Positions 35,856 through 41,801 of a stretch of DNA of 64,000 nt are shown one piece after another; within the stretch, counting starts at the first letter, position 1, and the number at the start of each line of letters is the position of its first letter. The notes under the pieces were generated by a model. It had not been told where the DNA came from. It saw only the letters and a list, made by a program, of their open reading frames with translations, and ran no database searches. The stretch is from Synechococcus sp. CBW1004. GTDB taxonomy: Bacteria > Cyanobacteriota > Cyanobacteriia > PCC-6307 > Cyanobiaceae. A program made the translations under genes and the position numbers. The stretch covers positions 2,376,686 through 2,440,685 of the forward strand of contig NZ_CP060397.1 of assembly GCF_015840715.1 (NCBI RefSeq), in the 5' to 3' direction.

Positions 35856-36119
35856 CTAACGGCTCAGGTCCTCCGGCAGCAGGTAACCCTTGCCGCCCCG
35901 GTCGAGCCGCTCGAAATGGCGCTGCAGATAGGGGTTGGAGCGCACCTCCTGACGGTCGAGGCGGCCATCACCGTTGAGATCGAGCCGGCGGAACAGCTTC
36001 TCCAGCCGCAGGTGGAAGCGGATCACCTCATCGTCGGCCCTCGCCGGACCGGCGCCGGTCGTCGCCGCGCCGAGGAGCAGCGCGGCGGCCAGAAGCAGTG
36101 GCAGAGCCCGTTGTCGCAT
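35856..36119 (-). CDS. Small exported EF-hand protein
   Basis: 87 residues: signal peptide to about residue 28 (LPLLLAAALLLGAATTGAGP ARA), then a canonical EF-hand loop DLNGDGRLDRQE and a second, degenerate one, DRGGKGYLLPED. It could bind one calcium ion in the periplasm. It lies divergently upstream of a two-component system, with about 85 bases between the starts. Confidence 0.75.
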   Translation of the reverse strand: MRQRALPLLLAAALLLGAATTGAGPARADDEVIRFHLRLEKLFRRLDLNGDGRLDRQEVRSNPYLQRHFERLDRGGKGYLLPEDLSR

Positions 36120-36204
36120 GGGCGCAGGCTATGCAGGCCGCCGCAGCCGGCGATGACAGCAGACCGGGCAAGCTGTGACCGGATCTTTCCGAACCGAGAG
36201 GACG

Positions 36205-36930
36205 ATGGCCCCGGGGCAGAGCATCTGGGTGGTCGATGACGACCCCGAACTGCGGCGCATGGTGGGCACCTATCTGATCGATCAGGGCTACGACGTGCGC
36301 TGCCTCACCGATGGCGCCCAGCTCATGGCCCGGCTGGCGGGAGCGCGTCCCGATCTGCTGGTGCTCGATCTGATGCTGCCGGGCGACAACGGCCTCACCC
36401 TGCTGCGGCGGCTGCGCGAAGCCGGCGACGACCTGCCGGTGGTGATGCTCACCGCACGCGGCGAGGCCGTGGACCGGATCATCGGCCTGGAGCAGGGAGC
36501 GGATGACTACCTGGCCAAGCCCTTCCTGCCGCGGGAGCTCAGCGCCCGCATCGAGGCCGTGCTGCGGCGGCGGGCGAGTCTACCGGCCGGCACGCCGCTG
36601 GCGGAGGGCGAGCGCGTCGCCATCGGCGATCAGGTGCTCGACCTGGCGTCTCGCACCCTGGAACAGGGCGGGAGCGTCACCCTGCTCACCTCCGGCGAGT
36701 TCGCGCTGCTCACCGCCTTCGTGCGCCACCCGCACCGGTCCCTGTCGCGGGAGCGGCTGGTGGAGCTGGCCCGCGGCCCCGACTCGCTCACCGACAGCCG
36801 CAGCATGGATGTGCAGGTGTCACGGCTGCGGCGGCTGGTGGAACCCGATCCCGGCCGCCCCCGCTACCTGCAGACGGTCTGGGGCTACGGCTATGTGTTC
36901 GTGCCCGATGGCCAGCCTCGCAGCCGCTAG
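36205..36930 (+). CDS. OmpR/PhoB-family response regulator
   Basis: 241 residues. The receiver domain has the acidic pocket DDDPE, the phospho-acceptor in LLVLDLMLPGDNGL, MLTARGEA and the Lys in DDYLAKPF. The C-terminal winged helix ends RYLQTVWGYGYVFVPDG, as in OmpR. ATG 36205 is used; an upstream in-frame GTG at 36175 is less likely. Its end overlaps the sensor kinase start by 23 bases, so the two are co-translated. Confidence 0.93.
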   Translation: MAPGQSIWVVDDDPELRRMVGTYLIDQGYDVRCLTDGAQLMARLAGARPDLLVLDLMLPGDNGLTLLRRLREAGDDLPVVMLTARGEAVDRIIGLEQGADDYLAKPFLPRELSARIEAVLRRRASLPAGTPLAEGERVAIGDQVLDLASRTLEQGGSVTLLTSGEFALLTAFVRHPHRSLSRERLVELARGPDSLTDSRSMDVQVSRLRRLVEPDPGRPRYLQTVWGYGYVFVPDGQPRSR

Positions 36931-38233
36931 AACCGCCCTCCTCTACGGCCTGGCTGGGCTGGGGGTGGCACTGCTGAGCACCGCCCAGCTGCAGTTGCTG
37001 CTGGCTGAGCGACTGGAGCGGGCCCGCATCAGCCAGCTGGGGCCGGAGGTGCTGTTCCAGGTGCGCCTCAGCGAACTGGCCCTGGGCCGCCTGCCGCCCG
37101 CCACCCTGGCCCGGCTCAGCGGCCTGCCGCTGCGGGTGGGCGAGCGGCCACCCAGCGGCCCCGGCGACCGCAGCCTGCGGGCCCAGGCAGCGCTGCTGCG
37201 CCAGGAGCTCTGCCGCTCGCTGCGGCCCTGTCCCCAGGTGCTGCCGGCGAGCGGACCACGGCGGGGGGTGTGGGTGCAGCTGCTGGCGCCGCTGGAGCCC
37301 GTCTGGCTGCTGGCGCCGATCCCACCGACTCCCGCCTGGCCGCCGGATCCCTGGCTGCTGCTGGCGGGCCTGTCCCTGGGGGGCAGTGTGGCCCTGCTGC
37401 TGTTCTTCGCGCTGGAGGTCCAGCGGCCCCTGCGCCAGCTGCAGCAGGCCCTGGCCGGGGTCGGTACGGCGTCCGGACCGCTGGCGCTCCCCGGACGGCA
37501 CGGCACCGCGACGGTGCGACAGCTGCAGGAGCGCTTCAACGCGATGGTGCAGCGGCTGGAGCGGATCGAGCAGGAGCGTTCGGTGATGCTGGCCGGGATC
37601 GCCCACGACCTCAAGAGCCCGCTCACCCGCCTGCGCTTCCGGCTCAGCCTGGCGGGGCTGTCGGAGTCCGATCTGCTGCAGGCCGAGGCGGACCTGGCGG
37701 CGCTGGAGCGGATCACCCGACAGTTCCTGCTGTTCGCCGGCGGCAGCGACGACGAGCCAGCCTGCGCGGTGCCGCTGGAGCAGCTGCTGGCCGAAACCGC
37801 GGCCGGACTGGATCAGAACAGCCTGGCCCTCGATCTGCAGCCCCTGGTGCGCGTGGTGCAGCCGGTGGCGCTGGGCCGGGCGGTGGCCAACCTGATCGAC
37901 AACGCCCGGCAGTACGGGGCACCGCCGCTGCGGCTGGAGCTGCGCGAGGCGGAGCCGCCCGGCCTGGGCTTCCGGATCATCCTCTGGGATGGCGGCACGG
38001 GCATCAGTGCCGAACAGTGGCAGCGGGCGTTGATGCCGTTCCAACGGCTGGACGCAGCCCGCGGAGGTCAGGGCCACTGCGGCCTCGGTCTGGCGATCGC
38101 CGCCAGGGTTGCCCGGGCCCATGGAGGCCTGCTCGAGCGGCTGGAACACCACCCGGCCGGCCCGGAGGCCGGGGAAGGGCGGCACTTCGGGATCGCCCTG
38201 TCGGGACGTTCGCGGTCCGGGACGGCGCACTGA
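36908..38233 (+). CDS. EnvZ-like sensor histidine kinase
   Basis: 441 residues: first membrane helix about 9-28 (ALLYGLAGLGVALLSTAQ), a sensor region of about 110 residues outside the membrane, second helix about 139-160 (LLLAGLSLGGSVALLLFFAL), HAMP, then a DHp domain with the phosphorylated His in GIAHDLKSPLTRLRFRL. The ATP domain has N box NLIDNARQYG, G1 WDGGTGIS and G2 GHCGLGLAIA. Cognate partner of the regulator upstream. The stimulus is unknown; nearby exported small proteins and the EF-hand protein are candidates for regulation or signalling. Confidence 0.9.
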   Translation: MASLAAARTALLYGLAGLGVALLSTAQLQLLLAERLERARISQLGPEVLFQVRLSELALGRLPPATLARLSGLPLRVGERPPSGPGDRSLRAQAALLRQELCRSLRPCPQVLPASGPRRGVWVQLLAPLEPVWLLAPIPPTPAWPPDPWLLLAGLSLGGSVALLLFFALEVQRPLRQLQQALAGVGTASGPLALPGRHGTATVRQLQERFNAMVQRLERIEQERSVMLAGIAHDLKSPLTRLRFRLSLAGLSESDLLQAEADLAALERITRQFLLFAGGSDDEPACAVPLEQLLAETAAGLDQNSLALDLQPLVRVVQPVALGRAVANLIDNARQYGAPPLRLELREAEPPGLGFRIILWDGGTGISAEQWQRALMPFQRLDAARGGQGHCGLGLAIAARVARAHGGLLERLEHHPAGPEAGEGRHFGIALSGRSRSGTAH

Positions 38234-38367
38234 AATCAGGAAGCACCAACGTCTCCGGTCGGATTTGGTCACAGGTCGGCGGCATCCGGGTCGCACCTCG
38301 GCTCCGGAACCGCTGGACAGTGCAGGGCAGCCGGCCCACCGCCGGCACCCCTCACCTCCATCCCGCG

Positions 38368-38754
38368 ATGACCTCCCTCCTCCACCGCCACGCTGGCCGA
38401 CTGGCGCTGCTGCTCTGCCTGCTGGGCGGCACCAGCCTGCCGGTCACGGCCGCGCTGGCCCGTCCCTCGGCTGCCGAGCCTTACTCCATCGCCGACCGCA
38501 GCAGCGACGACCGCCACCGGGACTGGCTCAAGGTCCAGCGCTCCCGAGCCCAGCAGGCTTACCAGCAGACCCAGCGTCGCCTCGATCAGCTGGAGCGCTG
38601 CCTGGACCGCAGCCGCCGGAACCAGGAGCGCGACCAGTGCCTGCGCCGCGATCTCGAAGCGCAGGAGCGCCAGATGCAGCGCGACCAACGGGACTGGCAG
38701 CTGCTGATCCGCCGACAGGGCCGGACTGCCCTGCTGTCCTGGCCACTGCGCTGA
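38368..38754 (+). CDS. Small exported coiled-coil protein with C-X12-C pair (member 1)
   Basis: 128 residues, unknown family. Signal peptide about 10-32 (RLALLLCLLGGTSLPVTAAL). The mature part is almost entirely charged helix (RSRAQQAYQQTQRRLDQLER) with two cysteines, Cys78 and Cys91, separated by exactly 12 residues, then DLEAQERQMQRDQRDWQL. The two Cys could staple a helical hairpin by a disulfide. Two further genes downstream share the C-X12-C spacing. First gene after the two-component system, 134 bases away. Confidence 0.7.
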   Translation: MTSLLHRHAGRLALLLCLLGGTSLPVTAALARPSAAEPYSIADRSSDDRHRDWLKVQRSRAQQAYQQTQRRLDQLERCLDRSRRNQERDQCLRRDLEAQERQMQRDQRDWQLLIRRQGRTALLSWPLR

Positions 38755-38808
38755 GGAGCCGCTCGATCAGACCTGCACCCAAAACGATCTCACCCGCCAC
38801 GATCCGCC

Positions 38809-39312
38809 ATGCACCGCACACCCTGGGCTCTCGCGCTGCTGGCCCTGAGCCTGCCGGCTCCGGCCCTGAGCGATCCCCTGCACCGCCAGGCCATCACCAC
38901 CGCCGCCTGGAACCAGATCGACCGCGACCCCTACCCGGTCGCTGTCGGTGCTCCCTGGCAGCGATACGGCAATCCTGAGGATGCCTTCGTCGACACCAGA
39001 CCCCGCCTCAGCTGGCGCGAGCGGGCCGCCTACGCCCTGCTCGGCCGCCCCGGCCATGGCGACGGCTACGGCGCCGCACCCCTGGGCGGCGATGGGTATG
39101 GCTACCGGCCTGGCCGCCCCTACCCGCTGGCCGTGATCCCCGCCACGCCCCAGCCCCAGCGCCGCTGTGGCCCCGGCCCCGCCCTGGTCGGCGCCGCCAT
39201 CGGCGGCGGCCTGGGCGCGGCCCTCAGCGACGGCTCACGCCAGCGCCAGTGGGCCCTGCCGATCGGAGCAACCGTCGGCGGCCTGCTTGGCGGCGTGCTG
39301 TCCGGATGCTGA
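38809..39312 (+). CDS. Exported glycine-zipper protein
   Basis: 167 residues. Signal peptide to about residue 21 (WALALLALSLPAPALS). The middle is Gly/Tyr/Pro-rich (GHGDGYGAAPLGGDGYGY). The C-terminus has a glycine-zipper segment (LVGAAIGGGLGAALSDGSRQ, IGATVGGLLGGVLSGC) with two cysteines, likely membrane-inserting or oligomerising. Lies between two C-X12-C genes, probably in the same transcription unit. Confidence 0.65.
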   Translation: MHRTPWALALLALSLPAPALSDPLHRQAITTAAWNQIDRDPYPVAVGAPWQRYGNPEDAFVDTRPRLSWRERAAYALLGRPGHGDGYGAAPLGGDGYGYRPGRPYPLAVIPATPQPQRRCGPGPALVGAAIGGGLGAALSDGSRQRQWALPIGATVGGLLGGVLSGC

Positions 39313-39416
39313 CCCCTGTCACCGATCGATGCCCTCGAAACCGCACCGGGCGGAGCGGATGGCCTTCGGGGCCCCCGACTCCGCCCAGGATGGGATCACG
39401 ACACCCCCCTGCAGCG

Positions 39417-39770
39417 ATGACACTCCGACACGCGAGGCGGCCCCTGCTGCTCGCCGCCCTGCTCGGCCTCGGCCTCTCCACCCTGCCATCGCCGGGGCAG
39501 GCGATCGAAGCCGTTCCCAACCGCACCAGGCTCACCCCCGCCCAGCAGCGGACGCTGTTCTCGGAATGGCGCCAGCTGAGCCTGAAGACGAACCAGGAGC
39601 GGATCACGATCCTGCAGCAGTACCAGGGATGCCTCTCCGCCGCCGGCTCGCTCGAGGCGATGCGGACCTGCCAGCAACGGCAGCGTCAGGCGCTGATCAA
39701 CCAGCGCCAGCAGCCGGGCGGCGGGTCGCCGCAGTCTCAGCCACAGCCCGACGGCACCCCGATGATCTGA
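39417..39770 (+). CDS. Small exported protein with C-X12-C pair (member 2)
   Basis: 117 residues. Signal peptide to about residue 29 (LLLAALLGLGLSTLPSPGQA). The mature helix LTPAQQRTLFSEWRQLSLKT leads to Cys72 and Cys85 (12 residues between), then QQRQRQALINQRQQ and a Pro/Gln tail. The order and spacing are the same as in the gene starting at 39980: LTPAQQ/LNASQR, then C-X12-C, then CQQ-rich helix. Unknown function. Confidence 0.65.
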   Translation: MTLRHARRPLLLAALLGLGLSTLPSPGQAIEAVPNRTRLTPAQQRTLFSEWRQLSLKTNQERITILQQYQGCLSAAGSLEAMRTCQQRQRQALINQRQQPGGGSPQSQPQPDGTPMI

Positions 39771-39979
39771 TCCACAGGCGGCCGCGGCCGCAGGCTCCCG
39801 AGGACTGCCGGTGTCCAAGGCAGGCCGCGGCAGCGCCGGCCACGGCAACCCCGGCCGGCCTCGCCCCCGACGGGAGCGCCGACAGGTTCAGTCAGATCCG
39901 GTCACATCTGCACTGCAGTGCAGTCGCAGTTTCGTAGCCCATCCAGCCCAGCATTGATGAGCAACCCACAGGAGAACCC

Positions 39980-40417
39980 ATGTCCCTTGCACCCATGAGC
40001 AGGCCAGTGCTGCTGATCACCGCCCTGGTGATCCTGGGCGGCATCCAGGCCAGTGAAGCAGCCCCCGGCGACAGATCCAGGCCTGGGGGCGAGCGCCGTC
40101 AGGCGATGCTGCGCCAGCAGGCCGAAGCGATCAGCCGACTGAACGCGAGCCAGCGTCAGGAGTACTTCACGGAGCTGGAACGACTGGAGCAACGCCGCTC
40201 CCGCGATCAGCTGCAGCAGCTCTCGGAGGCGCGGCGCTGCATGACCCAGGCCCGCGACGTGACCGCGATCGAGACCTGCCAGCAGGCCCAGCAGGCCCTG
40301 CGCAAACAGCAGCGACGCGAGCTGAAATCAGCGATGGCAGCACTGCGCCAGCGGTACGGCCTGCCGGGCTGGGGCGGACGCCAGCGGGACAGCCAGGGCA
40401 GCACGCGGGGGGCGTGA
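39980..40417 (+). CDS. Small exported protein with C-X12-C pair (member 3)
   Basis: 145 residues. Signal peptide to about residue 28 (VLLITALVILGGIQASEA). Helical mature region: ISRLNASQRQEYFTELERLE, then Cys87 and Cys100 with 12 residues between, CQQAQQALRKQQRRELKSAM, and a Gly-rich basic tail. Most similar to member 2 upstream (C-x12-CQQ shared). Plausible structure: antiparallel helices locked by a disulfide in the periplasm. An AGGAG ribosome site precedes the ATG. Confidence 0.65.
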   Translation: MSLAPMSRPVLLITALVILGGIQASEAAPGDRSRPGGERRQAMLRQQAEAISRLNASQRQEYFTELERLEQRRSRDQLQQLSEARRCMTQARDVTAIETCQQAQQALRKQQRRELKSAMAALRQRYGLPGWGGRQRDSQGSTRGA

Positions 40418-40595: not shown

Positions 40596-41801
40596 TCAGG
40601 CCTCGTCGAGGGCGGCCACGCCGGGCAGCACCTTGCCTTCCAGCAGCTCGAGGCTGGCGCCGCCACCGGTGGAGATGTGCGACATCTTGTCGGCCACACC
40701 CACCTTCTCGACGGCGGCGACGGAGTCACCACCGCCAATGATCGTGATCGTGCCCTTGGCACTCAGCTCGGCCAGGGTGTGGGCAATGCCGTTGGTGCCG
40801 GCGGCGAACTTGTCGAACTCGAACACGCCCATGGGGCCGTTCCAGATCACGGTCTGGCAGTCGGCCAGGGCGTCCTGGAACACCTTCACCGAATCGGGGC
40901 CGATGTCGAGGCCCATCCAGCCATCGGGAATGGCCTCCACCTTGGCGATCTGGCTGTTGGCGTCGGGAGAGAAGTTGTCGGCCAGCACCACATCGGTGGG
41001 CAGCAGGAACTGCACGCCCTTGGCAGCGGCCTTGGCCTCCAGCTCACGAGCCAGCTCCAGCTTGTCCTCCTCCACCAGGCTCTTGCCGACCGACAGGCCG
41101 CGCGCCTTGTAGAAGGTGAAGATCATGCCGCCGCCGATCAGAATCTTGTCGCACTTGTCGATCAGGGCCTCGAGCACGCCGATCTTGCTGCTCACCTTCG
41201 AGCCACCCACGATCGCCGCCAGGGGGCGCTTGGGAGCGTCGATGGCGCCCTGCAGGTAGGCCAGCTCCTTCTCCATCAGGTGGCCGGCCACGTTCGGGCT
41301 CAGGAACCTGGTGACGCCCTCGGTGGAAGCGTGGGCACGGTGGGCGGCGCCGAAGGCGTCATTCACGTACACCTCGGCCAGCGAGGCCAGCTGTTTGGCG
41401 AACGCCTCTTCGTTCTTCTCCTCTTCGGCGAAGAAGCGCACGTTCTCCAGCAGCACCACACCGCCCTCCTGCAGGGCGGCCACCTTGGCCGCGGCGTCGG
41501 GACCGATGCAGCTGTCGGTCTTGGTCACGGGCACACCCAGCAGGTCGCTGAGGCGGGCCGCCACCTGGGTGAGGCGCATGCCCTCATTCACCTGGCCCTT
41601 GGGACGGCCGAAGTGGGCCGCCAGGATCACCTTGGCGCCGTTGTCGCGCAGGAAGCCGATGGTCGGGAGGGCGGCACGGATGCGGGTGTCATCGGTGATC
41701 GCGCCGCTGTCATCCAGGGGAACGTTGAAGTCGACCCGCACCAACACACGCTTGCCGCGCAGATCGGCACTGCCGAGGCTGGCCAGGGATCGCTTCGCCA
41801 T
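40596..41801 (-). CDS. pgk: Phosphoglycerate kinase
   Basis: Interconverts 1,3-bisphosphoglycerate and 3-phosphoglycerate in glycolysis and, in a cyanobacterium, in the Calvin cycle. 401 residues. Substrate-binding [14 protein letters not shown] and [41 protein letters not shown], the ATP-site [13 protein letters not shown] and the C-terminal [13 protein letters not shown] are all canonical. Monocistronic with its own terminator. Confidence 0.98.

Follow-up and report, generated by a model that had tools for sequence, protein, structure and literature searches.

An OmpR/EnvZ-type signalling pair probably switches on a family of small, exported-looking proteins with a conserved pair of cysteines in small-celled cyanobacteria, and these proteins are possibly regulator-induced exported effectors that act as CpxP-like feedback partners of the kinase. 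The locus that led to this proposal (Table 1) lies in a single-contig genome of 3.67 Mb, and the window, i.e., the whole stretch of DNA analysed, comprises 64,000 nucleotides of it. The phosphoglycerate kinase (PGK) gene, which adjoins the locus, and the MurG gene of the window are presumably correctly named from inspection of their sequences.

Table 1. Features of the locus, with positions in the window.
Feature	Position	Strand	Evidence and remarks
Small exported-looking EF-hand protein (P0007)	35856..36119	-	Translation; Pfam EF-hand_6, 1.3e-9; divergent from regulator
Candidate operator GGAAAGATCCGGTCACAGCT, between EF-hand gene and regulator	36171..36190	-	26.4 bits
OmpR-type response regulator (P0005)	36205..36930	+	53% identity to E. 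coli OmpR; NCBIfam OmpR best model
EnvZ-like sensor kinase (P0006, initial Met omitted)	36908..38233	+	NCBIfam EnvZ best model; C101/C107 (P0006 numbering)
Candidate operator GGTCGGATTTGGTCACAGGT, before gene 1	38257..38276	+	26.7 bits; 1 mismatch
Gene 1, probable divergent family member (P0001), 128 aa, Cys 78/91	38368..38754	+	Translation; 16.1 bits
Exported-looking glycine-zipper protein (P0004)	38809..39312	+	PF05433, 6.8e-6, 26.3 bits (cut-off 24.2)
Gene 2, family member (P0002), 117 aa, Cys 72/85, LTPAQ	39417..39770	+	Translation; 70.7 bits; no motif upstream
Candidate operator AGTCAGATCCGGTCACATCT, before gene 3	39890..39909	+	30.2 bits, best of the window; 0 mismatches
Gene 3, family member (P0003), 145 aa, Cys 87/100, LNASQ	39980..40417	+	Translation; 76.7 bits; predicted helical hairpin
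Phosphoglycerate kinase (PGK) gene	40596-41801	opposite strand to gene 3	3' of gene 3

A family of small exported-looking proteins with a conserved cysteine pair

The initial annotation had described three exported-looking proteins with two cysteines separated by exactly 12 residues, and translation of genes 1 to 3 bears this out, each pair having the form C-X12-C; gene 1 encodes an additional Cys 17 within its presumed signal peptide. The signal peptides were judged by eye from a hydrophobic stretch and A-x-A-like ends. The features said to be shared by members 2 and 3, CQQ and an LT/LN-x-Q start, are present as well. The observation was thus right, but the glycine-zipper gene between genes 1 and 2 and the common operator had been overlooked. 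When a mature-region profile was built from 55 relatives, leaving out the window's genome and gene-1-like rows, P0003 scored 76.7 bits (maximum of 1000 shuffles, 3.0), P0002 70.7 bits (12.6), and P0001 only 16.1 bits (9.5); four relatives of P0001 reached 25 to 33 bits. Because of these scores, genes 2 and 3 are regarded as clear members of one unnamed family and gene 1 as a probable divergent member, and chance was rejected as the origin of the common C-X12-C.

Within the window's own taxonomic family, which is probably the Cyanobiaceae of GTDB to judge by the named kinase loci (Cyanobium, Synechococcus, and Vulcanococcus), P0003 has matches in 48 and P0002 in 53 of 121 genomes (E 0.01), often in the same places. 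At the same threshold P0001 matches in seven of the 121 genomes, strongly only in G106 besides itself; its close relatives come from Cyanobium usitatum, Synechococcus sp. CS-1330, and GFB01. In a sample of 244 genomes from the phylum, with at most 16 candidates scored per genome, strong matches (E below 1e-15) were found in 12 genomes, all belonging to the window's own family, and five others matched only at E 0.004 to 0.007, of which two belong to it and three do not.

The iterative profile search suggested at the outset, applied to 52 fetched loci, assembled 59 members, including the three of the window, and 49 rows from named loci brought the collection to 108 rows or 102 distinct members. 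The members of L151-L153 were left out of the 102. Also left out, from the long-flank loci, were G068:C27, G103:C212, G111, G074, G097, G120, G002, and a two-stop copy in G023; the omitted family matches were short-contig or weak ones, and G118, G022, and G087 were entered as contig pieces. A cysteine pair behind residue 34 is present in 102 of the 102 distinct members, but a Cys-less relative could have escaped, since members were found by similarity. The spacing is C-X12-C in 96 of them, two with one extra Cys, and the six others, all from kinase-adjacent loci, have X11 (L076, L078, and L170), X10 (L163), X9 (L168), or X8 (L094). An LTxxQ-like motif stands ahead of the first cysteine in 58 of the 102 members in a relaxed form (shuffles: mean 10.8, maximum 19) and in 49 in the strict form L[TS]xxQ.

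In agreement with the earlier description of a small unnamed family, none of the three window proteins exceeded a Pfam or NCBIfam cut-off. The best E values listed for the scanned members (0.0037 in Pfam and 0.00064 in NCBIfam, the latter for one member against a CRISPR model) are scattered over unrelated models. PDB sequence searches with single members and with alignments returned only weak, scattered matches, and those to PsaF (E 0.024 and worse) were taken as chance. The PF07813 family of CpxP, ZraP, and Spy was absent from the first 25 of 40 families listed for 59 members and from all 15 families listed for 48 members, both at E 0.1, and a scan of the window's genome relaxed to E 10 gave no match to it. 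One member matched the NCBIfam CpxP model at E 0.071 only, and homology to E. coli CpxP/ZraP/Spy was not supported, the hhalign alignments covering only 12 to 15 columns around LTxxQ (P 0.06 to 0.11).

A helical hairpin, as the initial annotation had it, is confidently predicted by the AlphaFold2 model of P0003, in which two helices form the hairpin and both cysteines lie near the turn; the model was built from 48 sequences (mean pLDDT 81.7; pTM 0.64; block means of pLDDT 93 to 98 over residues 41 to 130), and four of the 49 named-locus members were left out of the folding alignment for want of a good start codon. The model has helices at residues 37-52, 56-90, and 94-125, the last two forming the hairpin. 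Its turn (91-93) lies between C87 and C100, and the paired cysteines would form a disulfide there. Foldseek comparison of the model with the PDB gave a best E of 1.1, and VIA-align returned generic hairpins. ZraP (3lay; Z 8.1, 4.1 A over 77 residues) and CpxP (E 8.6 in the Foldseek list) appeared amid unrelated hairpins, and a Z of 8 is background for helical bundles. The lack of a clear fold match is no evidence of a new fold.

Association with the signalling pair and a common candidate operator

The regulator P0005 shares its 53% identity with E. coli OmpR over 236 aa, and the NCBIfam OmpR model is the best of 101 (304 bits, below the cut-off of 331), scoring above the RpaB model (185 bits, cut-off 330). 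For the kinase P0006, EnvZ is the best of 53 models (137 bits, below the cut-off of 415), and the alignment with E. coli EnvZ extends through the sensor domain. The kinase sensor contains two cysteines (C-X5-C) that E. coli EnvZ lacks in the alignment, and these are present in 134 of 134 kinase stretches covering the region, a count that excludes one further, truncated stretch and includes some genomes twice. In an AlphaFold2 model of the kinase (12 sequences, mean pLDDT 75.6), C101 lies close to the end of a helix, and a strand begins shortly after C107.

At E 1e-20, the kinase was found in 56 of the 121 genomes of the window's own family. Kinase and exported family are both present in 53 genomes and both absent from 60, with five genomes having the family only and three the kinase only (eight discordant; Fisher p 1.3e-24, shared ancestry ignored). 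The constant co-occurrence put up for checking initially holds as a strong association but not as an absolute one. Four of the family-only genomes are 77 to 88% complete and the fifth, G089, is 99% complete; the kinase-only genomes G049, G080, and G105 are 94, 98, and 86% complete, respectively. Repeat profile searches found no family gene in G049 and G105, only a stretch with four stops in G080 (E 0.019), no kinase in G002 and G089, a 112-residue kinase piece in G098 (E 3.9e-30), and only kinase matches at E 1e-17 to 1e-18 in G103 and G111. Of the 244 genomes sampled from the phylum, 11 have the kinase (E 1e-45, no more than seven candidates scored per genome), namely the 12 with strong family matches minus G089. 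The locus of G089 (L106) has retained the hairpin gene and the operator, and no kinase of the OmpR/EnvZ type was found in this genome.

The window and 51 further fetched loci make up a set of 52 family loci. In 22 of these the kinase adjoins the family gene, and 48 of the 52 are located at the kinase, at PGK, or at both according to a manual row count; a random genomic scatter of homologues was not seen. Many loci have the family gene at PGK without the signalling pair, and among 33 further kinase stretches a family gene is near in three and none is near in 30. When the best 80 of 417 kinase relatives were inspected as named loci, some of them cut by contig ends, a family gene was located behind the kinase in 43, starting 39 to 463 bp (median 126) downstream of where the kinase match ends. 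In eight of these 43 loci (L185, L201, L205, L215, L223, L226, L230, and L232), PGK is situated 1.6 to 4.4 kb further away and the family gene still stands behind the kinase. The idea that family genes merely follow PGK is weakened by these loci, because the family gene has stayed where PGK has moved away.

The window's PGK gene is itself bimodal among loci, with 93 to 96% identity in some and about 84 to 90% in others, the latter including loci of the window's own genus; the loci named in this comparison are L156, L157, L159-L161, and L207, which has two PGK stretches. The bimodal identity may reflect gene exchange. Genome G030 carries two OmpR/EnvZ-like pairs (L085/L140); no hairpin gene was detected with the pair at PGK, but the other pair, which lies elsewhere, has one.

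Two 10-bp half-sites in tandem, GTCAnATCTG-GTCACAnCT, make up a candidate operator that precedes most family genes. De novo motif discovery (ZOOPS EM) in 77 non-redundant upstream regions of up to 200 bases yielded the motif GTCAgATCtGGTCAcA with a log-likelihood of 775.9, compared to 66 to 83 in three mononucleotide shuffles run with fewer restarts. A matrix retrained on 64 upstream regions, from which the window's genome and its near kin were left out, recovered the motif in 53 of the 64, and 46 of these sites start 86 to 105 bases before the script-chosen start codon. Its three top scores in the 64 kb of the window are those listed in Table 1, and the next is 12.7 bits. The pattern GTCANATYYGGTCAYANST, which was derived from a motif search that included the window, has three sites with at most two mismatches in the whole genome, exactly those of the window, compared to one site for the reversed pattern, and the site before gene 3 is the only one genome-wide without a mismatch. 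Gene 2 is probably read together with gene 1. Short patterns were less useful. A first expression, [AG]GTCACA, matched 24 of 59 family and 24 of 51 regulator upstream regions and was superseded by the motif search, and in the window alone neither GGTCACA nor GATNYGGTCACA with one mismatch (four matches, equalled in six of 100 shuffles) was significant; it is the longer matrix that separates the three window sites.

In 983 kb of family loci (L069-L119) the matrix has 57 matches of 17 bits or more, compared to three in shuffled sequence. Forty-one of these precede family genes (in 40 of 51 loci, which are partly training data), 12 precede the regulator (in 10 of the 20 loci with a regulator), and four lie elsewhere, two of them directly behind the kinase (L069 and L113). 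Kinase loci without family genes (337 kb) contain 22 matches (shuffled, one); 21 precede the regulator, and these come from 20 of the 30 loci. At 17 bits, a third to a half of the regulators are therefore without a site (10 of the 20 regulators in family loci, and 10 of the 30 in kinase loci that have no family gene). In 30 other family genomes, 29 of them with the kinase, 108 GTCACA-type sites stand against 20 for the reversed-pattern control, and in six genomes without family and kinase the counts are five and five, all 36 genomes having been picked by hand. RpaB, an OmpR-family regulator of cyanobacteria, is presumably present in these six. The motif comparison points to tandem 10-bp half-sites of the GTnACA type, as in OmpR operators, and the half-site layout equals that of published OmpR boxes such as GTTACAACTTGTTACATAAG, given in PMC9861516. 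Together, co-occurrence, adjacency, and the common OmpR-type operator lend support to the initial suggestion that the family is controlled by the neighbouring pair.

A total of 32 operator-bearing stretches were inspected (12 and a second set of 20 picked by hand). In 11 of them, each from a different genome (L288, L293, L275, L266, L285, L286, L300-L302, L308, and L309), the operator precedes an exported-looking protein of the functionally uncharacterized family DUF2808, three identified via Pfam and the others via a common FRW[DE] stretch. P0004-like glycine-zipper proteins follow it in L069 (9126-9623), L158 (7426-7725), L160 (7408-7722), and L161 (7333-7764); no hairpin family member was found in L158, L160, and L161, where the glycine-zipper gene takes the place of the hairpin gene. 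P0004 probably belongs to the same regulon as the hairpin family. The glycine-zipper proteins behind the operator in the window and in these four loci have two cysteines, the last of them C-terminal (SGC). In L306 an EF-hand gene starts 51 bases behind the operator, in L295 the operator stands ahead of a gene resembling an efflux membrane fusion protein (by eye), and in L294 and L296 it is found before other exported-looking proteins. The genes of the last three loci suggest a regulon that could extend further in some lineages. Some of the inspected operators have no obvious gene behind them, and no porin-like gene was noted by eye among the 32 stretches.

Proposed mechanism and alternative readings

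We estimate the probability at roughly 55% that the locus represents an envelope response of the OmpR/EnvZ type that has an exported output of its own, in which the hairpins are CpxP/ZraP/Spy-like and probably feed back on the kinase. The phosphorylated regulator would bind the tandem 10-bp half-sites and activate, rather than repress, its own divergent region, including the EF-hand protein, and one to three copies of the hairpin family. The products, folded as two-helix hairpins with the cysteine pair at the turn, would be exported to the periplasm (or the thylakoid lumen), where they may act like CpxP, ZraP, or Spy by binding unfolded or stressed envelope proteins, and they would probably damp the kinase as a feedback; this chaperone and feedback role is proposed because of the analogy with CpxP. 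In favour of an envelope response with kinase feedback are the universal cysteine pair of the members, the co-occurrence with the kinase, the adjacency that persists despite a moved PGK, the operator statistics and their OmpR-box layout, the exported-looking proteins behind other sites, and the CpxP precedent. Against it stand the absence of supported homology to CpxP/Spy/ZraP, with weak PDB matches amid unrelated hairpins, the 30 of 33 kinase stretches without a near family gene, the many regulators without a 17-bit site, the family gene and operator of G089 without a kinase, and the fact that, by eye, no porin-like gene was noted among the 32 operator stretches.

It is possible, if clearly less probable, that the hairpins are an output only, protecting the envelope (wall, outer membrane, or lumen proteins) or giving it structure, without any feedback on the kinase. 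The presence of the operator before DUF2808 genes in 11 genomes and before glycine-zipper and EF-hand proteins would fit such a role, as would the retention of the operator in many genomes whose family gene is distant from the kinase. By itself, however, a pure output leaves the close co-occurrence with the kinase and the repeated adjacency unexplained.

We are doubtful about a thiol-based variant of EnvZ, in which the C-X5-C pair of the kinase and the cysteine pair of the hairpins would exchange disulfides. If it were true, the OmpR regulon would be informed, via the hairpins, of oxidative folding or the redox state in the periplasm or thylakoid lumen, and a system known for osmosensing would read redox in picocyanobacteria. 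A role in metal handling, with the hairpins as ZraP- or CnrX-like sensors or buffers whose cysteines bind Cu or Zn, is improbable: PF13801 (Metal_resist) matches two of 48 members (best E 0.004) and two of 59 (0.019), and ZraP is among the structural matches of the P0003 model, but these matches are weak, concern few members, and in the case of ZraP do not rise above the helical-bundle background, and no His or Met reaches 50% near the cysteine pair in the family consensus. Least likely of all is an operator that belongs to RpaB with the local pair as a mere neighbour, since the layout does resemble HLR1, described in PMC9241938 as a repeat of (G/T)TTACA(T/A)(T/A)-N2 with a 10-bp period, but the excess of GTCACA-type sites over controls is seen in the family genomes and not in the six without family and kinase, only three sites occur in the genome of the window, each of them at the local pair, and no HLR1 match with up to three mismatches occurs in the window, which says little because only 0.1 is expected by chance.

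Comparison with known systems

Picocyanobacteria of the Synechococcus/Cyanobium group contribute a major share of primary production and have few signalling pairs. In the literature cited here, a role is assigned to their OmpR/EnvZ pair only by mapping from its E. coli counterpart. SYNW0807/SYNW0808 of the marine strain Synechococcus WH8102, a pair annotated as EnvZ/OmpR, was computationally mapped to osmoregulation (PMC2874817), and it presumably belongs to the same orthologue group as the window pair; unlike for the latter, no linked exported family is named for it in what PMC2874817 presents on this pair, and the words "motif" and "binding site" are absent from the main text. For sponge symbionts, the presence or absence of envZ/ompR is reported (PMC6506613), and SYNW0807 did not change significantly under two DNA-damaging agents (PMC3744912). 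The open-access literature, to which our survey was confined (subscription papers lying outside its scope), yielded no publication on the exported family or its operator. The pair now has a concrete candidate operator, a short list of exported-looking targets, and a dedicated accessory family with a conserved cysteine pair, and thus offers a candidate cell-envelope response in small-celled cyanobacteria that is open to direct testing.

CpxP is a periplasmic inhibitor of CpxA and a strongly induced target of CpxR (PMC4985592). As in CpxRA-CpxP (and ZraSR-ZraP, Spy), a small, predicted all-helical and exported-looking protein is encoded beside an OmpR-family regulator and an envelope kinase and is apparently induced by that regulator; an LTxxQ-like motif ahead of the first cysteine is seen in 58 of the 102 hairpin proteins. 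Unlike CpxP, ZraP, and Spy, the hairpins are without supported homology and are not LTXXQ members by sequence, they have a cysteine pair at the predicted hairpin turn in every member found, and they occur in up to three copies per locus. The pair differs from E. coli OmpR/EnvZ in the cysteine pair of the kinase sensor, in the NCBIfam equivalog cut-offs missed by regulator and kinase, and in sites that so far precede small exported-looking proteins, and it resembles this system in the sequence of the regulator, in the alignment of the kinase sensor, and in an operator of tandem 10-bp half-sites.
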